A stretch of DNA of 49,059 nt from an uncultured Algimonas sp. (GTDB lineage Bacteria; Pseudomonadota; Alphaproteobacteria; Caulobacterales; Maricaulaceae). The stretch's first letter is position 1, and each line of letters starts with the position of its first letter. Positions 25,003 to 40,065 of this stretch are shown here, one piece after another. Both the position numbers and the translations under genes were made by a program. The stretch lies in the NCBI GenBank assembly GCA_937923575.1, contig CALDUL010000002.1, positions 1 through 49,059 of the forward strand. Reading direction: 5' to 3'. A model generated the notes under the pieces. It saw only the letters and a program-made list of their open reading frames with translations, was not told the DNA's origin and ran no database searches.

Positions 25003-25941
25003 CTATATCAGTCCGTTACGCAGAGAGTCGGCGTCCTCAGCAGGCAAAGCGCCTGCAATCTGCTCGGCATGAGCGAGTTCGGCGTCCGTGAGCGTCACGA
25101 CGAGCTCGACAATCAGATTACCCTTTTCCGTCACGCCCTTGCCCTTCAGGCGCATTTTCTTGCCCGTATTCGACCCCGGAGCGATCTTCAGCCCCACGGT
25201 TCCGCGCGGCATGGATAGGCGCACTGTCGCGCCCTCCAGTGCCTCGCGCAGACTGATCGGCAGTTTCAGGCGCAAATCCTTGCCGTCACGCGTCAGGTTC
25301 GGATGATCCGAGACCGTCACTTTCACGCGTGCATCGCCCGCCGGGCCGCCATTGACGCCGGACTTTCCTTTTCCCTTCACGCGCAAGGTCTGGCCGTCTT
25401 TCACGCCAGCCGGAATACGGACCTTGGTACCACCGGGCAGCAAGCGTTCGCCGCCTTTCAGAGCTTCGGGCAGCTTCATCTTCACGGTATATTCCACATC
25501 CGCGCCTTTGCGTTGCATGGGCGGTCGGTTCATGCCGCCGCGCATGCCGCCCGTCCGGCCGCCCATGTTCATCCCAAACAGCGAGCTGAACAGATCTGCC
25601 ATCTCGTCCTGACCGCCGGCCCGGCCGCCAAAGCCCTCGAACCCGCCAAAGCCAGTCGAATAGCCCGGTCCCTGACCGCCGCGATTGAACCCGCCCGCAA
25701 ACGGATTGCGCTGCTGACCCTGCGCGTCGATCGCGCCCGTGTCGTATTGCTTACGCAGCTCTTCGTTGGACAGCAGATTATAGGCCGCCGTCACCTCCTT
25801 GAAGCGCTCCTCGGCCGCCTTGTTGTCCGGGTTCACATCGGGGTGCAGCTTCTTGGCGAGCTTGCGATAGGCCGAGCGGATTTCCTTGTCCGTCGCGGAC
25901 TTGGTCACACCCAGCAGGTCATATGGATTTTTCTTTGCCAT
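25003..25941 (-). CDS. DnaJ/CbpA-type co-chaperone (no zinc finger)
   Basis: A 312-residue class B J-protein. It has an N-terminal J-domain with HPD at residues 33-35, a Gly/Phe-Gly/Met-Gly-rich linker (about 80-135), and the two-lobed C-terminal substrate-binding domain (ADVEYTVKMKLPEAL, KVRIPAGVKDGQTLRVKGKG). The CxxCxGxG zinc repeats of true DnaJ are absent, so it is CbpA-like. Its start lies only 16 bp downstream of the GTA host-specificity gene on the same strand with no terminator between, so read-through from the GTA operon is possible. Confidence 0.93.
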   Translation of the reverse strand: MAKKNPYDLLGVTKSATDKEIRSAYRKLAKKLHPDVNPDNKAAEERFKEVTAAYNLLSNEELRKQYDTGAIDAQGQQRNPFAGGFNRGGQGPGYSTGFGGFEGFGGRAGGQDEMADLFSSLFGMNMGGRTGGMRGGMNRPPMQRKGADVEYTVKMKLPEALKGGERLLPGGTKVRIPAGVKDGQTLRVKGKGKSGVNGGPAGDARVKVTVSDHPNLTRDGKDLRLKLPISLREALEGATVRLSMPRGTVGLKIAPGSNTGKKMRLKGKGVTEKGNLIVELVVTLTDAELAHAEQIAGALPAEDADSLRNGLI

Positions 25942-33653: not shown

Positions 33654-34793
33654 TTACGCGGCGAACTTCAGCAGGCTGATGGCCTCGCGGTCCTGCACGC
33701 CGCCGCCGACGCGCTTGGTCGTGTAGAACAGCACATAGGGCTTGGCGGAGTATGGGTCGCGCAGCACGCGAACGCCCTGGCGATCCGCAATCATATAGCC
33801 GCGGCGGAAGTCACCGAAGGCGACGGCACACTCACCCGAGGTGATGTCGGGCATCTGCTCCATCTCGGTGACGTTGTAGCCGAGCAACTGCGACGGCTGA
33901 CCCGACGCGCCGGGCGTCCAGACGTAGTTGCCGTCCGCGTCCTTGATCTTGCGGATCTCGGACAGGGTGCGGCGGTTCATCACGAAGGACGCGCCCGGAC
34001 GATAGACCGATTTAGGCGCGTAGATCAGGTCCATCAGCGTGTCGTACTGCGTGTCGCTAAAGGCACCGTCGACACCGGTGCGAAGCTCCTTCAGAGCATC
34101 CGCCCCGCCCTGATAGGTCAGGAAGCCGCGCGGTTTTTCGGAGCCGTCGCCATTGACGAAAGCTTCGGTCTCTTGCGCGGCAAAGACGTCGCGGACTTCC
34201 TCGGCCAGCCAGGCGTCGACATCCGCCACGCTGTCATCAAGCAGGGCCTGCGTCGCGGCGGGCATGGCGTAGAGCTCGCCCGCGGGAAATGCGACAAGCT
34301 TGAGGCTCGGTGCGGTCGTCTCCGGGCGCGGATCGGTTTCTCCGACCCATCCGGTGGTCGCCTGACCGGACGAGATCGGCTTGCGGAACTCGCCGCTACC
34401 GATCTTTCGAACAGTCGCGATGCGGCGCATGGGCGAGGCCTGCTCCAGCGCCATGTCGATGCGGTTTTCCGTCTCGACCGGGGCGACATAGCCGCCGTCG
34501 CCGTCGGTAGTGGAGAGCGCTTTCAGCTCTGTCAGCGCGGTCTCGTCACCCGAACGGATAAAGCGCGACCAGGCGGATTTGGCCTCATTCACGGGTTGCG
34601 CGACCACCGGCTGCGACATGGACACGGAGAGCGTTTCCAGCCGGCGATTGAGGCGCTCGACCTTCTCGGTCAAAAGCGGATCGGCGGCGGATTTGCTCTC
34701 GATTTCCGCCAGGCGGGCGTCGTTGGCGTCGCGGAAGGCCGCGAAAGTCTGGGCGAAATCTTCACTCGCCATTTTGGTTTCGATTTGAGTCAC
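33654..34793 (-). CDS. GTA major capsid protein (g5-like, HK97 fold)
   Basis: A 379-residue HK97-type capsid protein. The N-terminal ~100 residues form a coiled-coil scaffold/delta domain (AFRDANDARLAEIESKS, LTEKVERLNRRLETLSV) expected to be removed by the g4 protease. The shell domain starts near STTDGDGGYVAPVETENRI and includes GDFRRGYMIADRQGVRV. The start is GTG at 34793, overlapping the protease TGA (GTGA). A strong terminator follows, so this is likely to be the most abundant late message. Confidence 0.95.
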   Translation of the reverse strand: MTQIETKMASEDFAQTFAAFRDANDARLAEIESKSAADPLLTEKVERLNRRLETLSVSMSQPVVAQPVNEAKSAWSRFIRSGDETALTELKALSTTDGDGGYVAPVETENRIDMALEQASPMRRIATVRKIGSGEFRKPISSGQATTGWVGETDPRPETTAPSLKLVAFPAGELYAMPAATQALLDDSVADVDAWLAEEVRDVFAAQETEAFVNGDGSEKPRGFLTYQGGADALKELRTGVDGAFSDTQYDTLMDLIYAPKSVYRPGASFVMNRRTLSEIRKIKDADGNYVWTPGASGQPSQLLGYNVTEMEQMPDITSGECAVAFGDFRRGYMIADRQGVRVLRDPYSAKPYVLFYTTKRVGGGVQDREAISLLKFAA

Positions 34794-35200
34794 GCAAGGG
34801 CTCCTTTGGGCTGCGTTTGGATGTCGTCGAAGGTCGTGATCCGGGCAGTGCCCAGCATCGGGAAGGCGACGACTGACACCTCCCGAAGATCCAGATCGAG
34901 CAGCTCTCGCTGCCCGGCGCCGACACGCGAACGCCGCGTGCGGTAGCCGATCGAAAGACCGGAAATTTTACGAGACCGAATGAGACGCGCGATGGCCGGG
35001 TCGCTGACCTCGCCTTCGACGAACAGTCCGGTCGCGTCCTCGCGCGCGCGGAGCCAGCGGCCGATAGGGCGCTGATGATCCGAGAGCATGGGCAATCCGG
35101 ACACGCGTGACAGCAGGCTCGCGGCAAAGGCGCCGGGCCGTACGATGTCCCCGCCCGCGTCCCGCTCGCCAAAGCGAGAGGCGTAGCCGCTAATCCTCAT
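34790..35200 (-). CDS. GTA prohead protease (g4-like)
   Basis: A 136-residue HK97-family prohead protease. Catalytic residues are visible as His in MLSDHQRPIGRW and Ser in ISGLSIGYR. The fold hallmarks ISGYASRFGERD, VRPGAFAASL and LREVSVVAFPML are present. It matures the capsid by trimming the scaffold domain of gp5. The start at 35200 overlaps g3.5 by 11 bp. Confidence 0.93.
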   Translation of the reverse strand: MRISGYASRFGERDAGGDIVRPGAFAASLLSRVSGLPMLSDHQRPIGRWLRAREDATGLFVEGEVSDPAIARLIRSRKISGLSIGYRTRRSRVGAGQRELLDLDLREVSVVAFPMLGTARITTFDDIQTQPKGALA

Positions 35201-35477
35201 TGTGCACCGCCTCCTCGATGCGGCGTAAGGACTCGCGCATGATGGCGGTTTCGCCCTCCAATCGGGCGAGGCGAACGGACACTTCGGTGTTGACCGAATT
35301 GGCGCGTTCCAGATCGGCGAGCCGCGCCTCCGCGGCCCCAACCCAGAAGATCGCGGCCGCCGTCTCCAGTGCGACCGTGACCATCAGCGCCATGCCGATA
35401 GAGCGGTCGAATTTCATGGGGGCAACGCGGATCGTCGCCTCCTCTGCGATTAGCTGACCCGTCATTGTTTGCGTCAT
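35190..35477 (-). CDS. Small GTA membrane protein (g3.5-like position)
   Basis: A 95-residue protein with one predicted membrane helix (about 35-53: GMALMVTVALETAAAIFWVG) followed by a coiled-coil region with heptad spacing (ARLADLERANSVN ... RLARLEGETAIMRESLRRIEEAV). The ATG at 35477 overlaps the portal stop by 4 bp. It occupies the slot of RcGTA g3.5, a small protein of unknown role between portal and protease. No catalytic motif is seen. Confidence 0.8.
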   Translation of the reverse strand: MTQTMTGQLIAEEATIRVAPMKFDRSIGMALMVTVALETAAAIFWVGAAEARLADLERANSVNTEVSVRLARLEGETAIMRESLRRIEEAVHNED

Positions 35478-36583
35478 TGGACGGGCTCCAGCCCCGCCAG
35501 CGCGCGGCGCTCGGCGTCGGTCAGAAAGCTCGCTTGCTGCAGCCGCGCCCACAGAGCCGCGCGTTCGCTGGCCAGTGCGGGCACTGCGTCGAGGTCGGCG
35601 CGCAAGGCGACCTCCTCGCCAAAGGCCGACAGCCAGCGCGAGAGCCCGCGTGCGCTCCGCCGGATCAAGGGCAGGATCGTCTGCCGCCAGAAGGCGCGGT
35701 TCGCCTCCTGGTAATTGGCGTAGGTATTGTCACCCGGAATTCCGAGCAGCATCGGCGGCACGCCAAAGGCCAGCGAGATATCGCGCGCGGCCTCTCGGCG
35801 GCCTTGGGTGAAATCCATATCTGCGGGCGACATGCCCATGGATTTCCAGTCGAGCCCACCTTCCAGCACCATGGGACGGCCCGCCCGGTCGGGTCCGGTA
35901 AAGCCGCTCTCCAGCTCGGTCTTCAGCCGGGATACCTGGTCGGCCGTGAGGCGGTCGCCCGGCCCTCCGTTATAGACCAGCGCGCCAGAGGGCCGCGCGG
36001 AATTGTCGAGCAAGCTCTTGGCCCAGCGCGTGCCCTGATTGTGCAGATCGACGCTGGTCGCGGCTGCGCGCAGCGGCGACTGACCGCCCGTATTCATCGG
36101 ATCGAACAGCTCGATCCCGAAGACATCGCAGCGGCCCGTCAGCGGATCGCGCGGATGAACCGATTTGCCCGACGCGGTCCGTATTTCGAACCCAGCGGGG
36201 CGGCCCGCGCGGTCGGTCAGCGGACGCACACTGTCGGGACGCAATGCGCGGATCGCGACGATATCTCCGTCAAGCACGCTGGCGAGCAGATAGGCGCGGC
36301 CCGCCAGCTGCAGATAGCCGAAGAACTGTTCCATCGTGTCGTCGCTCAGCAACACGTCGGGCGCACCAATCATGGGGACGCTGGCCGCCGCCTCCGCAAT
36401 CAGTCGAACACACCGATAGACCACCGGGTTAGTCCCATAGCCTTCGCGGCAGAGCGAGGTGTAGTCAGTGCTGGTGAAGCGGGCACGGCGCGACAGCTCC
36501 AGCGCCACCAGTGGCGCGCTTTTCGTCTCGCTTGCGGGCAGGTCTGTGGGCGCGGGCGCGCGGCCCGTGAACGGTAGTCTCAT
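35474..36583 (-). CDS. GTA portal protein (g3-like, HK97 family)
   Basis: A 369-residue HK97-type portal protein: YGTNPVVYRCVRLIAEAAAS, RAYLLASVLDGDIVAIRALRPD, GTRWAKSLLDNSARPSGALV, MDFTQGRREAARDISLAFGVPPMLLGIPGDNTYANYQEANRAF. It forms the dodecameric DNA channel at one capsid vertex. The start at 36583 is chosen by homology. It is preceded 28 bp upstream by an intrinsic terminator hairpin, an unusual position for the second packaging gene. Confidence 0.94.
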   Translation of the reverse strand: MRLPFTGRAPAPTDLPASETKSAPLVALELSRRARFTSTDYTSLCREGYGTNPVVYRCVRLIAEAAASVPMIGAPDVLLSDDTMEQFFGYLQLAGRAYLLASVLDGDIVAIRALRPDSVRPLTDRAGRPAGFEIRTASGKSVHPRDPLTGRCDVFGIELFDPMNTGGQSPLRAAATSVDLHNQGTRWAKSLLDNSARPSGALVYNGGPGDRLTADQVSRLKTELESGFTGPDRAGRPMVLEGGLDWKSMGMSPADMDFTQGRREAARDISLAFGVPPMLLGIPGDNTYANYQEANRAFWRQTILPLIRRSARGLSRWLSAFGEEVALRADLDAVPALASERAALWARLQQASFLTDAERRALAGLEPVQ

Positions 36584-36610
36584 AGGGGGTCCCCGGATCA
36601 TGTGGACGCA

Positions 36611-36641
36611 AAGAAAAAGCCGCACCCGGCTGGGAGCGGCT
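36611..36641 (-). terminator. Intrinsic terminator immediately upstream of the portal gene
   Basis: Stem AGCCGC/GCGGCT (36618-36623 with 36636-36641) is extended across an A-A mismatch by CCC/GGG around a GGCT loop, followed on the minus strand by TTTTTCTTT. It lies 113 bp beyond the stop of the 149-aa gene and 28 bp before the portal start. It would end transcripts of the 149-aa gene and block read-through from the terminase genes. Confidence 0.88.
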
Positions 36642-36754
36642 CGGCTCTCGTTTGAAGAGCGTTTTTGCAGCGATAAGGGGTTTATGGGACATCCCTCACG
36701 AGGCGGGGATGTTTCTCCTCATCTTTGGCCCAAGACCCTGAAAACCCGGCGTTT

Positions 36755-37204
36755 CTAGGCGACCTGGAAGAGGGATGGACTTCTGGGGCGATCGCCCAGC
36801 AGCGTCAGCGTCAATTTGTAGTTCACTCGCAGGTCTTCGCGCAGGGTCTCGTCAGAAAGCAGCGAGGCCAAGGTGATGGCGCCGCGATAGGCATCGCGGG
36901 CAGACACCAACGCATCGCGGTCGCCCGTCTGACGGCCCAGCGTCAGCAGCGTGTCGGCGATGGATTGCTGAATCAGCGCATGTTCGCGCGGGGCCGTATC
37001 AAAGGTGTAGAAACGTGTCGCCGACCGCAGCGACTCCACCGCCTGGATCAGCGGGGCCGAATCATTGGTCGCCTTCGCCAGCGTCGACAGCTCGGCCGCG
37101 AGTTCCCAATGGGCCTCGGCGAGCTGTTCGGCATTGCGCTGCAGTTGGATGTCCAACTCGGCCTTGGCCCGCAGATCGGCCTGCTTTCGCGATGATGTGC
37201 GCAT
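36755..37204 (-). CDS. Extra TPR-like helical protein inserted between terminase and portal
   Basis: A 149-residue all-helical soluble protein, not one of the canonical GTA genes. It has a Gln/Ala/Glu-rich first half (DLRAKAELDIQLQRNAEQLA) and, from about residue 72, a pattern resembling tetratricopeptide repeats: EHALIQQSIADTLLTLGRQTGDRDALVSARDAYRGAI followed by a second degenerate unit. There is no signal peptide, enzyme motif or obvious DNA-binding motif. A GAGAGG ribosome site precedes the ATG. It is separated from both neighbours by unusually long gaps, with a perfect -10 box upstream and a terminator downstream, so it may be expressed independently of the GTA block. A function cannot be named; protein-protein interaction is the best guess. 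Confidence 0.8.
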   Translation of the reverse strand: MRTSSRKQADLRAKAELDIQLQRNAEQLAEAHWELAAELSTLAKATNDSAPLIQAVESLRSATRFYTFDTAPREHALIQQSIADTLLTLGRQTGDRDALVSARDAYRGAITLASLLSDETLREDLRVNYKLTLTLLGDRPRSPSLFQVA

Positions 37205-37265
37205 GGACGCCTCTCAAACTTCCAATTGTGGGTGTATTGGGGCGAATGTGGTGAATCTACGGTTA

Positions 37266-37271
37266 ATTATA
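37266..37271 (-). promoter_or_regulatory. Candidate -10 box for the 149-aa gene
   Basis: A perfect TATAAT on the minus strand, 62 bp before the ATG of the TPR-like gene and 8 bp past the terminase stop. The hexamer 17 bp upstream is TTATCC, inside the terminase end, a weak -35 match. A consensus -10 is rare in DNA of this composition, so a promoter is plausible but unproven. Confidence 0.5.
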
Positions 37272-37279
37272 CGCGCCGC

Positions 37280-38569
37280 TTAGAAGAAGGATAATCGCGG
37301 CGTGGAGCGGCGGGAGAGAAGTTCCGACACCGCCCAGACCAGCGCGTCCATGCGGTCGGGGCTGCCGGACTGGTGCGGCCCGCCAAAGGCGCAGAGCTCG
37401 TCTTCGAGCGCGTCCAGCCGGCCGATATGGTGCACGCGTCCGCGCGCGTAGAGCAGCCCCACGGGCATGGCGCGACTGGCCTTGGAACGGCTGGCGTGAC
37501 GGCCGACCACGGGCACATCGGCGTCGATACTGGCCAACATGGCAGAGATCATCTCGCCGCCCTGATTGGTCTCGGCGACAATGCAGTCCGCCTCGAATTG
37601 TTCGAACAGGGCCACGGCGCGTGCAGCCCACACCTGCGGTCCCGCGCGCTCCATCGTGCCGTCATGCAGCACATAGGCGTGGGGCTGTCCGTCCTGCTCC
37701 GCCACGCCGACCACGACCATGCCGCAGGCGTCAGACGACGCTCCAGACGTGGCGGGTGGATCCAGCGCAATGATGACGCGGTCGAGCTTGGGCGCTGTGC
37801 TCACACGGTGCGCGTCGATGGCGTCCCTCGTGAAGATCGCCCCGGGATGGTCCCGCACGATTTCGCCGTCGAGTTCCTGCCGTCCGAGCGCCGTGCCGCC
37901 GTAGCTCTCCTCCATCATGGCGATAAAGCCGGGTGCGAGATGGGCGGCATTGTCATGGGTGCGCGAGCGGGTCACCGTCGTGCCGGGCGCGGCAATCAGT
38001 CGGTCCAGCAGTGGCATGGGCTTTGGCGTTGTCGTCAGGCACAGCCGCGGATCGCTGCCCAGGCGCAGCGCCAGCCGCAGGTTGGACAGTGTCGCATCCG
38101 CATCCGGCCAGGCGCAGAACTCGTCGCCCCAGGCGCAGTCGAATTGCGGGCCGCGCAGACTATCCGGATCGTGGGCTGAGAAGATCTCCGCCACCGCGCC
38201 GTTTGCCCAGGTGAGCTGACGGCGAGTTGGGGCGTAGCTCGGGCGCTCCAGAATGTGACCGCAGGACAGCAGCCCGCTGTCGCCGCCCAGCATGACTTCG
38301 CGCGCGGCATGGAGCGTCGGCGCAACCAGAGCGATGCGGCGTTTTCCGCGCTTCACCTGCTCACGCACCCATTCCGCACCCGTTCGGGTCTTGCCCGATC
38401 CGCGCCCGCCCATGACAAGCCAGATCGGCGTCTCCTCGCTCCGCTTGCCGCGACCATCGACCTGATCGGGCCGCGCCGTGCCGCGCCATTGATGCTGATA
38501 CCACTCCAGCTCGCGCCCCGGTATGGCGCGGACGAATGCGCGGGCGGCGGCGCGCGACTTGGGCGTCAT
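37280..38569 (-). CDS. GTA terminase large subunit (g2-like, TerL)
   Basis: A 429-residue packaging motor. The ATPase domain has Walker A MGGRGSGKT (53-61) and Walker B with the catalytic acid in CAWGDE (149-150), plus the coupling motif LCLTTTPKP. The nuclease domain starts at RVIIALDPPATSG and includes the Glu in CIVAETNQGG and the terminal Asp in PDRMDALVWAV. It packages host DNA headful by headful. The ATG overlaps the small terminase stop by 4 bp. Confidence 0.96.
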   Translation of the reverse strand: MTPKSRAAARAFVRAIPGRELEWYQHQWRGTARPDQVDGRGKRSEETPIWLVMGGRGSGKTRTGAEWVREQVKRGKRRIALVAPTLHAAREVMLGGDSGLLSCGHILERPSYAPTRRQLTWANGAVAEIFSAHDPDSLRGPQFDCAWGDEFCAWPDADATLSNLRLALRLGSDPRLCLTTTPKPMPLLDRLIAAPGTTVTRSRTHDNAAHLAPGFIAMMEESYGGTALGRQELDGEIVRDHPGAIFTRDAIDAHRVSTAPKLDRVIIALDPPATSGASSDACGMVVVGVAEQDGQPHAYVLHDGTMERAGPQVWAARAVALFEQFEADCIVAETNQGGEMISAMLASIDADVPVVGRHASRSKASRAMPVGLLYARGRVHHIGRLDALEDELCAFGGPHQSGSPDRMDALVWAVSELLSRRSTPRLSFF

Positions 38570-38853
38570 CGCCGTGGCTCCAGCAACCCATTGTCGACCA
38601 TGCGTTGCATCCGGTCCAGAACCGCGTCGACTTCGGCATCGCTGAGCAGCTGCCCTGCGCGGATGCGGCCGGGCTGTTGCGAGAGAAAGGCATCGGCCTG
38701 TTCCAGCGAGCGGATCGTCGCCGTCAGCGCCTTGGCCGTGCGCTCCATCTCTGCCGTATTGTCGGGATCATGCGACAGCGCGATGAGCTTTCGGTTGAGA
38801 CGGTCGATGGCAGCGGCGGCGGTCTGATCAAGAGGTTCGGATGGTTCGGTCAT
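38566..38853 (-). CDS. GTA small terminase-like protein (g1-like)
   Basis: A 95-residue mostly helical protein (AIDRLNRKLIALSHD, TEMERTAKALTATIRSLEQADAFL, LLSDAEVDAVLDRMQRMVDNGLL). RcGTA g1 occupies the same slot and has been identified as a TerS lacking specific DNA recognition, in keeping with random packaging. No clear Shine-Dalgarno sequence precedes the ATG. It is coupled to TerL by an ATGA overlap. Confidence 0.85.
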   Translation of the reverse strand: MTEPSEPLDQTAAAAIDRLNRKLIALSHDPDNTAEMERTAKALTATIRSLEQADAFLSQQPGRIRAGQLLSDAEVDAVLDRMQRMVDNGLLEPRR

Positions 38854-38875
38854 GGGAGCAATCTGCGGGACAGGA

Positions 38876-38904
38876 GGACGGCGGGGATCGGTTTGTCGCC
38901 GTCC
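38876..38904. other. Hairpin in the gap between gafZ and the first GTA structural gene
   Basis: A perfect 8-bp inverted repeat (GGACGGCG, 38876-38883, with CGCCGTCC, 38897-38904) with a 13-base loop lies in the 88-bp space between the gafZ stop and the small terminase start. No T-tract follows on the minus strand, so it is not a canonical terminator. It could be an RNA element or operator at the head of the structural operon. Confidence 0.5.
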
Positions 38905-38941
38905 CCGCCCACGCCCTGCCTCATCCCTGTCGTTCAGCCTC

Positions 38942-39676
38942 TTACCCTGCGCGCCGCACCCCCGGTTTGGTGCCGTAGAAGCGCACCAGATGATCCAGAC
39001 CCATGCGCAGCAACATCTCCGCCACGCCGCTGGTCCAGCCCTCGTCCCGCGCGACGCGCGCTAGCGACACCTCGGCACCGAGGACCTGGCTCAGCACACG
39101 CGCCACGCGCGGATCGAGGCCGGCCTTGGCATGAGCGAGCGCCCGTGCGGCATCGAGCCGATGGATCACCGCGTCTTCCGCACGCCCGGCCCGGTCACCG
39201 CCGTCCACTTGCGGCGCGGCGTAGTCGGACGCGTTGATCCGTCCCCCGCCTGCCGCGTGCACAGACCGTGCAAACCGCCGCGCCGCCGCAATCTGGGCGG
39301 CGTCGAACAGCGTCCCGCCGCTACCGTCCGATTTGCGTTCCAGCCGATCGATGACGGAGAGCCGGCTCGCCCGCACCGCGCGCTCCCCCGTCTGCTTACC
39401 GGGCAGCAGCTCCGCCTGCTGCTCGATCTCGGTCAATGGCACGCCGTTGAGGATTCGCCGCGCCGTTTGCGAGGTGAGCTGGTAGCCGCGCGGGCCGAGC
39501 TCGACGATGCGTCGCGCTTCCCAATCCTCGACATCGACGCGTTCGATACAGGCGATCGGCCGAGTGCGTTTGTCGCCGCGCGCGTGAATTCGCAACACGC
39601 TCGCCCCGCGTTCGCGCGCGATGACGCCGTTGCTGTCATACATCAGCCGGAGCAGGCGTTGTGTGGTCAGGCTCAT
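38942..39676 (-). CDS. gafZ: GafZ-like GTA activator (DUF6456), probable anti-terminator
   Basis: A 244-residue DUF6456-type protein. The C-terminal 80 residues (AEDAVIHRLDAARALAHAKAGLDPRVARVLSQVLG ... VARDEGWTSGVAEMLLRMGLDHLVRFYG) match the conserved core shared by Caulobacter GafZ and the C-terminal part of Rhodobacter GafA. A helical N-terminal region (QLTSQTARRILNGVPLTE) precedes it. Caulobacter GafZ is reported to work with RNA polymerase and Nus factors as an anti-terminator on the GTA cluster. The ATG at 39676 overlaps the gafY stop by 4 bp and has GGAGG upstream. The frame open to 39796 is overlap with gafY and is discounted. Confidence 0.88.
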   Translation of the reverse strand: MSLTTQRLLRLMYDSNGVIARERGASVLRIHARGDKRTRPIACIERVDVEDWEARRIVELGPRGYQLTSQTARRILNGVPLTEIEQQAELLPGKQTGERAVRASRLSVIDRLERKSDGSGGTLFDAAQIAAARRFARSVHAAGGGRINASDYAAPQVDGGDRAGRAEDAVIHRLDAARALAHAKAGLDPRVARVLSQVLGAEVSLARVARDEGWTSGVAEMLLRMGLDHLVRFYGTKPGVRRAG

Positions 39677-40065
39677 AACGGACCTCCCGCATCGTCGTTG
39701 ACGGACACATCGGCGAAGGCCTGCAGTCGCGCCCCGATACGGTCGAGCTTTTCGCCGAAAACGGCGTCGTCCATCAGCTCGGACACGCAGCGGCAAGCGT
39801 GGCTGACCGTGGAGCGATCACGCGAAAAGAGCTGGCCAATACGGGTGTGGCTCATGCCGTATTGCACATGGGCGAGATACATCGCGACTTGTCGCGCAAA
39901 GTCCACATTGGGACCACGGCGGTCGGGGCGAGATAGTTCGAGCTCGGGCGCGCCAAATGCGATAGCGACGGCGGCCGCGCAGATTTGCGCTCTCGCCCGG
40001 TCGTGGGTTGTGTTCGTCCTGCGCGACTGTCCGCCGGCGCCTTGTGGTAGTCGTGTCGGGGCCAC
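39673..40065 (-). CDS. gafY: GafY-like GTA transcription activator (DnaA-type HTH)
   Basis: A 130-residue protein with a DnaA domain-IV-like helix-turn-helix at about residues 55-100 (DFARQVAMYLAHVQYGMSHTRIGQLFSRDRSTVSHACRCV; compare the RDHTTVLHA motif of DnaA). This is the domain order of Caulobacter GafY and the N-terminal part of Rhodobacter GafA, which activate the GTA promoter. The start is GTG at 40065: AAGGAGG lies 5 bases upstream, and two ATGs in between are in another frame. It is coupled to gafZ by an ATGA overlap. Confidence 0.85.
   Translation of the reverse strand: MAPTRLPQGAGGQSRRTNTTHDRARAQICAAAVAIAFGAPELELSRPDRRGPNVDFARQVAMYLAHVQYGMSHTRIGQLFSRDRSTVSHACRCVSELMDDAVFGEKLDRIGARLQAFADVSVNDDAGGPL

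Follow-up and report, generated by a model that had tools for sequence, protein, structure and literature searches.

A TPR-like gene between terminase and portal in an Algimonas gene transfer agent cluster is probably an old passenger that serves the cell

What is an additional small gene doing in the middle of a gene transfer agent (GTA) cluster, and how could the genes behind it still be transcribed? The question is raised by a stretch of 49,059 nt from an uncultured Algimonas sp. (assembly GCA_937923575.1, contig CALDUL010000002.1), which we call the window. Its large terminase gene terL (37280–38569, minus strand; Pfam Terminase_6N/6C) and its portal gene (35474–36583, minus strand; Pfam Phage_portal, NCBIfam portal_HK97) are separated by 696 bp (36584–37279; terL ends at 37280 and the portal ATG is 36583–36581). 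This gap contains an open reading frame (ORF), orfX (36755–37204, minus strand), which encodes an all-helical TPR-like protein of 149 aa ending in ...SLFQVA. A sequence-only reading of the window had noticed the gap and described it as a moron, i.e. a cassette of autonomous promoter, one gene with its own ribosome site, and terminator, expressed in all cells. Gap and gene are real: the ORF is intact and GAGAGG lies 5 nt upstream of its ATG. The promoter–gene–terminator layout did not hold, since a conserved element that belongs to the portal gene intervenes between orfX and the terminator. Our findings suggest that orfX is an old passenger of the cluster that probably works for the cell. To our knowledge, host-serving cargo in GTAs, as carried by prophages, has been little explored.

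Distribution of orfX and its retention after GTA loss

The sequence-only reading had proposed a search of related GTA clusters with the 149-aa protein and its flanks. This search showed orfX in 15 of 18 congeneric genomes, among them that of the window, and in 53 of 137 genomes of the family; in 43 of these 53 loci it adjoins terL and/or the portal gene. The 14-row profile used matched 65 family genomes, but the matches other than the 53 were weak and fell in larger reading frames, and we counted as orfX proper those of at least 80 bits. The reading frames of the 53 loci have no internal stop (that of L039 is cut by the contig end). Named orfX-bearing records include Algimonas, Litorimonas, Hellea and Robiginitomaculum, and most of the 24 are metagenome-assembled; NCBI taxonomy places Algimonas in Robiginitomaculaceae, Maricaulales. 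Among 299 genomes drawn from the order, no orfX-like match was found outside the family (E limit 1e-8); the matches obtained there had E values of 5.7e-10 or weaker and lay in reading frames of 489 to 1137 aa. Fifteen IMG/VR contigs (L096–L110) carry orfX, in every case before the portal gene of the same GTA cluster. All 15 are thus pieces of a GTA cluster, and such GTAs are catalogued there as viruses.

Relatives without orfX argue that it was inserted, as had been claimed. In 38 of 58 orfX-less family genomes, including all 17 of genus g7, the terL and portal matches are no more than 110 bp apart. This count covers genomes with both matches on one contig, those with split contigs or with one match missing being excluded, and one of the 38 (G079) has merely a terL fragment. 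The G+C content of orfX is also lower (means over 34 loci: orfX 50.4%, terL 56.4%, portal 56.5%). orfX is therefore an extra gene that is absent at the same place in relatives, as a moron would be. A 40-genome rpoB tree, with genus g23 as the root, unites the 26 sampled carriers and one orfX-less genome of genus g21 in a clade [ultrafast bootstrap (UFBoot) 89], so that a single gain is the simplest account, and orfX was probably gained once.

We rejected two other origins. A recent insertion of a single gene does not agree with the 15 of 18 genus genomes that carry orfX or with the DUF2726 partner gene that accompanies it in 32 of the 53 loci (see below). Sharing of orfX with sequenced phages or plasmids was dismissed because tblastn gave no match at E 1e-3 (50,697 and 72,556 records).

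The fate of orfX after loss of the GTA separates the value of the gene from that of the particle. Genus g21 has terL, portal, capsid and DUF6456 in none of its 10 genomes and orfX in nine of them. The same four markers are unmatched in G126, a genome that is 99% complete and has kept orfX. The gene order there is UPF0260–orfX–DnaJ–PepSY–response regulator–histidine kinase–DegP. In the GTA-bearing genomes G125, G022, G115 and G124, UPF0260 lies 5′ of terL (L130, L041, L136 and L142) and the series from DnaJ to DegP lies 3′ of the whole GTA (L206–L209). The orfX of G126 thus stands between the flanks that enclose the entire GTA in its relatives. A fifth genome fetched, G127, had neither UPF0260 nor the DnaJ-side flank within the stretches obtained. 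The rpoB tree places G126 as sister to GTA-bearing genus mates (100 and 98) and g21 as sister to the GTA-bearing G018 (91), which indicates two separate GTA losses. These losses with orfX retained amount to a natural experiment.

purA diverges from orfX or from the DUF2726 partner in eight of the nine g21 loci, which calls for a separate promoter there; in the ninth (L122), the orfX unit follows UPF0260. The sole GTA-less g21 pair with a synonymous divergence (dS) below 1.5 gave dN/dS 0.025 (NG86; pairs at or above this dS limit were excluded). Erosion of the GTA next to an intact orfX was found as well: the capsid gene of G017 (L027) is truncated near DnaJ, and G050 has neither a portal nor a capsid match. 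In G006 (L026) portal and capsid are also unmatched, which may be due to the assembly because its contig ends soon past orfX with a weak portal fragment. In the Algimonas-type relative G014 (L028), we saw no g12–g14 match before DnaJ. Since orfX has persisted in two lineages that lost the GTA, we conclude that it is not an obligatory gene of the particle; on the evidence of these genomes, it probably has its function in the cell.

A promoter-like element before the portal gene

Between orfX and the portal gene lies a conserved element (36667–36714, minus strand). In the window it consists of the −35-like block AAACATCCCC (36705–36714), a spacer and the −10-like box CATAAA (36681–36686), followed by TTATCGCTGC. 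The pattern shared by the aligned orfX–portal gaps is approximately ATCC and a −10-like box, with the two matrix blocks 16 or 17 nt apart, and then approximately TTATCGACG or TTCATGGTCAG. A two-block matrix detected the element in 37 of the 39 loci with both orfX and portal, 111 to 213 nt 5′ of the portal gene; in many of the 37 it starts 39 or 40 nt past the orfX stop. In the training of this matrix, L112 and L114 were below threshold and eight seeds failed the seed pattern. With its own group untrained, the window element was the best site on the minus strand of the 49-kb window (18.6, compared with 0.3 after shuffling). When whole groups were left out of training, the pre-portal site was the best on that strand in 35 of the 39 loci. 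Of the 15 IMG/VR contigs, used as a hold-out set, 14 had their best site 60 to 260 nt 5′ of the portal match; in the exception, L100, it lay between protease and capsid (portal match +2534). The hold-out is partial, the elements of L099 and L105 being identical to those of the training loci L031 and L037.

The element stays with the portal gene where other genes have been inserted between orfX and portal (L033, L036 and L111). A further strong copy was found in L113 past a 61-aa ORF between protease and capsid (portal +2171). In the ten GTA-less orfX loci, the only sites scoring at least 12 (12.0 and 12.2) were scattered and below the shuffled maximum of 15.2. Judged by these positions, the element follows the portal gene and not orfX. 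The start signal of the cluster thus appears to be present a second time, just past orfX, and we infer that this copy would act as a GTA-type promoter of the portal unit. Such a copy would explain, in a concrete and testable way, how an operon can withstand an insertion.

Weaker sites precede the first gene of the cluster. In the window, this gene is g1 (38566–38853, minus strand), a probable small terminase gene (terS) by its position alone, since it precedes terL here and in L026–L028; family-library searches gave no significant family match for it. The copy directly 5′ of g1 (38848–38892, minus strand) scored 12.7, with its five shuffles at −7.5 or lower, and 9.0 with the group left out. 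Compared with this 9.0, the sites just 5′ of terS scored 15.5 in L031 and 16.5 in L142, both again second sites, and in L032 the terS site was the best of all (19.4). In 10 of 14 loci of orfX-less outgroups, the best site lay 312–560 nt before the terL match and beat its five shuffles (L159, 26.1; L161, 24.1; L160, 16.2; L153, 12.4; L156, 11.8; five weaker). We also observed that in L152, L153, L156, L160 and L161 the −10-like box stands just a few bases before the ATG read as the terS start. Given this closeness, terS may have a leaderless message in those outgroups.

The sequence-only reading had assigned to orfX a TATAAT just past the terL stop and a terminator before the portal gene. Both motifs exist. 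The TATAAT (37266–37271, minus strand), a possible −10 box of an orfX promoter, has as its best −35 partner TTATCC (3/6, spacing 17). Its occurrence in the short gap is unlikely by chance yet unremarkable, because the window holds six exact TATAAT on both strands, five of them on minus. A consensus scan of 34000–40000 gave no promoter (shuffles 0.8, sd 0.9) and five terminator-like sites (shuffles 3.2, sd 2.0). When the top two promoter-like matches were listed for each locus, without a control, an exact TATAAT was among them in three of the 53 loci (window, L036 and L128); CATAAT follows terL in L030 and L134. As a putative promoter of orfX, the motif has a poor −35 and is not generally conserved. 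At the terL stop of L114, L115 and L116, before the DUF2726 gene, we noted a promoter-like pair of TTGTAA, 17 nt, and TATTAT, TATGAT or TAAAAT.

The hairpin with T-run at 36610–36643 (minus strand) beat 198 of 200 shuffles (z −2.68) and is kept in the relative G011 (L039). It lies downstream of the element that stays with the portal gene and therefore belongs to the portal leader and not to orfX. Directly 3′ of orfX, terminator-like sites were found in four of the 53 loci (L112, L113, L116 and L126; shuffles 1, 2, 2, 1 and 0), the window not among them. Upstream of g1, the window encodes a GafZ-like protein (38942–39796, minus strand; Pfam DUF6456) and a GafY-like protein (39673–40065, minus strand; Pfam Bac_DnaA_C helix-turn-helix). 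In Caulobacter, polymerase reads through a terminator downstream of gtaT with the help of GafZ, and a palindrome bound by GafZ separates the −35 (AATCAT) from the −10 (TATCTTT) of the GTA promoter (PMC11150451). Because of this precedent and the GafY- and GafZ-like genes next door, termination in the leader with GafZ-dependent read-through is our preferred reading by analogy. The terminator behind the element would offer a direct test of GafZ antitermination beyond Caulobacter. The first 50 nt of the predicted portal leaders form a short hairpin in many loci (mean z −1.37, 24 of 37 below −1), which is suggestive; the stems differ in sequence between genomes.

The OrfX protein and its DUF2726 partner

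Findings on the TPR-like label given to the protein point both ways. In its favour, the orfX family profile aligned to a TPR protein at an hhalign probability of 96.4% over 119 columns (the target, an 815-aa reading frame, itself matches TPR_10 with a whole-protein E value of 6.5e-10). The AlphaFold2 model consists of five helices (residues 3–46, 50–65, 72–93, 96–115 and 119–136) with a mean predicted local distance difference test (pLDDT) score of 91.3. On the other hand, Pfam gave no match for the window protein up to E 1. TPR_8 was matched in three of 14 relatives (best E just 0.029), the search of solved structures was weak (best E 0.0078, a designed repeat protein), and the other family libraries searched yielded nothing informative. 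We predict from profile and model that orfX encodes a small TPR-like adaptor.

The tail of the model (residues 141–149) is of low confidence (mean pLDDT 59), and it is here that conservation is strict: the last two residues are AA or VA in all 53 loci and likewise in all 15 IMG/VR loci (partly the same organisms). Such ends occur in 72 of the 729 ORFs of at least 120 aa in the studied loci, orfX counted, and the DUF2726 and terL proteins end otherwise. Conservation of the tail as a mere DNA-level binding site before the portal promoter was rejected because AA/VA is also kept in GTA-less loci. Caulobacter ClpXP recognizes non-polar C-terminal residues (PMC8973945), and CtrA is stabilized once its terminal alanines are replaced by aspartates (PMC4433202). 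The likeness of orfX to such ClpXP substrates (PMC4433202 and PMC8973945) is its C-terminal AA/VA. The tail resembles a ClpXP degron, and turnover by ClpXP is a prediction. If the tail marks the protein for ClpXP, OrfX would probably be a short-lived regulator or adaptor.

In 32 of the 53 loci, orfX is directly preceded by a gene for a DUF2726 protein (E 1.2e-18 in L037). The N-terminus of this protein is hydrophobic (mean hydropathy over 19 residues, 1.44 to 3.37), and residues D105, E120, D122, H126 and K138 are invariant in all 32. DUF2726 has been described as a restriction endonuclease-fold DNase that occurs fused to abortive-infection domains in a defence context (PMC3710099). In 21 of the 27 loci with both genes, the DUF2726 match begins 25–84 nt past the terL stop, and this short spacing looks like co-transcription. 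The match is absent from the other 21 orfX loci, some of which are cut by contig ends; the window is one of these 21 and has no DUF2726 gene. PADLOC gave no match for orfX or for the DUF2726 protein.

Explanations compared and relation to known systems

The explanation that we consider probable as a whole is that orfX is an old passenger of the GTA cluster working for the cell, in a cluster split into two transcription units. It starts from the conservation of orfX, its gain, its retention after GTA loss, the conserved element and the AA/VA tail. A single insertion between terL and portal, dating to the common ancestor of the Algimonas/Litorimonas/Hellea/Robiginitomaculum-type lineage, would have brought in orfX. 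The DUF2726 gene most likely arrived with it and would have been lost later from the line of the window. In the first unit, terS–terL–(DUF2726)–orfX, transcription would start at a weak promoter of the GTA type before terS, and the passenger may have an additional promoter of its own. The second unit, from portal onward, would be driven by the GTA promoter copy between orfX and portal. If Caulobacter is a guide, RNA polymerase modified by GafZ would pass the leader terminator of the window in GTA-producing cells only, and unmodified transcripts, including any from orfX, would stop there. OrfX may then be a short-lived regulator or adaptor controlled through ClpXP, perhaps for the membrane-anchored, nuclease-fold DUF2726 protein where this partner is present.

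Several observations weigh against this explanation. With groups left out, the pre-portal site was not the best in four of the 39 loci (L032, L034, L112 and L114), and for L031 a shuffled sequence scored 21.4, higher than the 17.6 of the real locus. Outside the family the motif is insecure, the one strong match (L057) coming from a training genome and a further match (L068) being weak. Four of the 14 outgroup loci (L148, L149, L155 and L158) had no site that beat the shuffles. The likeness to the Caulobacter promoter lies in an arrangement taken from PMC11150451, and an inverted repeat in the spacer of the element is only weakly enriched (p 0.03). Leader terminator-like sites occurred in just six of 37 loci (shuffles 2, 0, 1, 0 and 0), two of which (L030 and L031) appear inside the first portal codons. 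The DUF6456 (GafZ) gene was not found in the GTA-bearing G125. Finally, the G+C content of orfX differs from that of its neighbours by just about 6 points, and the selection figure comes from one of 36 g21 pairs.

The moron described at the outset, a TATAAT promoter, orfX and a terminator forming one cassette expressed in all cells, is unlikely in this literal form. Its motifs are real, orfX is an extra gene of lower G+C content, and in most g21 loci it requires its own promoter. Moreover, a better promoter-like pair stands at the terL stop before the DUF2726 gene in L114, L115 and L116, and a hairpin with T-run lies directly 3′ of orfX in four of the 53 loci. In the window, however, the terminator lies beyond an element that belongs to the portal gene, and the TATAAT is not generally conserved and has a 3/6 −35. 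The spacing of 25–84 nt behind terL in 21 of 27 loci also looks like co-transcription and not like an autonomous unit. What survives of the moron is the passenger, an added gene that outlives the GTA. Also unlikely to us is a module acting on DNA entry or in defence, in which a membrane-anchored DUF2726 protein would cut incoming phage or GTA DNA under the control of OrfX. The E value of the DUF2726 match, the five invariant residues, the hydrophobic N-terminus and the published DNase and abortive-infection context (PMC3710099) speak for it; the 21 loci without the partner, the window included although some are cut by contig ends, and the negative PADLOC search speak against it.

Helical proteins often assist assembly, and orfX could accordingly encode a GTA accessory protein (for packaging, as an assembly chaperone or as a regulator) that acts during particle production. 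Its adjacency to terL and/or portal (43 of 53 loci) would suit such a role, and a GTA-type element before terS would co-express it. We nevertheless regard this as quite unlikely: ten genomes of two lineages keep orfX without any of the four GTA markers searched, the one measurable GTA-less pair is under constraint, and many GTA-bearing family genomes have no orfX. An origin of orfX as a host gene around which the GTA cluster was later assembled is highly improbable. GTA-less orfX loci do exist, but their carriers are nested among GTA-bearing ones in the rpoB tree, for which reason we rejected this origin, and the outgroups have the GTA without orfX.

The passenger explanation has parallels in known systems. 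Within the Caulobacter crescentus GTA locus, CCNA_02873 serves the cell by conferring zeocin resistance (PMC9632790), much as we read orfX; it differs in that the section of that paper on CCNA_02873 does not describe a GTA-loss comparison. Extra genes at the same terL–portal junction are gtaQ and gtaS, between gtaT and gtaP of C. crescentus (PMC11150451). The likeness is one of position, and these genes, like orfX, lie near a terminator, which in Caulobacter polymerase passes with the help of GafYZ. The arrangement differs, as Caulobacter has its GTA promoter before gtaT and terGTA just after it, whereas the orfX clade has the promoter-like element before portal (PMC11150451). Prophage accessory (moron) loci are likewise extra genes between phage genes, dispensable for the phage cycle and probably useful to the host (PMC7067206). 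Compared with these, orfX is old and apparently vertically inherited, its carrier is a GTA and not a prophage, and in the window it shows no sign of a terminator of its own and has a putative promoter. Late promoters of the lambda Q or AlpA type share the order of promoter, short leader, terminator and structural genes with an antiterminator-like gene (here GafZ) nearby (PMC11150451). The version of the orfX clade is predicted from sequence, and its leader terminator occurs in few relatives. Among the listed papers on GTAs, GafZ anti-termination, morons, DUF2726 and the genus names, no title or abstract opening described orfX.

The minus-strand order of the window is gafY-like, gafZ-like, g1, terL, orfX, portal, head and tail genes and a DnaJ gene (25003–25941). 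We assigned the cluster to the RcGTA type from the Pfam matches of terL, portal and protease and of the GafY- and GafZ-type regulators; the other genes were assigned by position and shared order. The sequence terL, portal, protease, capsid and head–tail genes is what we take to be the RcGTA order. At the terL–portal junction, varied extra reading frames were seen in L148, L162, L150, L155, L033, L036, L111, L113 and L114. By reading alone, they include cation-efflux-type transporters (L148 and L162), a transposase-like gene (L033) and an esterase-like gene. The junction may be a general insertion hot spot. A bolder version, which we think unlikely, is that the GTA cluster of this lineage is a stable cargo dock, in which insertions are followed by a GTA promoter copy that restarts the operon. 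The oldest cargo, orfX with the membrane-anchored DUF2726 nuclease, would then be a proteolytically controlled DNA-entry module kept after GTA loss.
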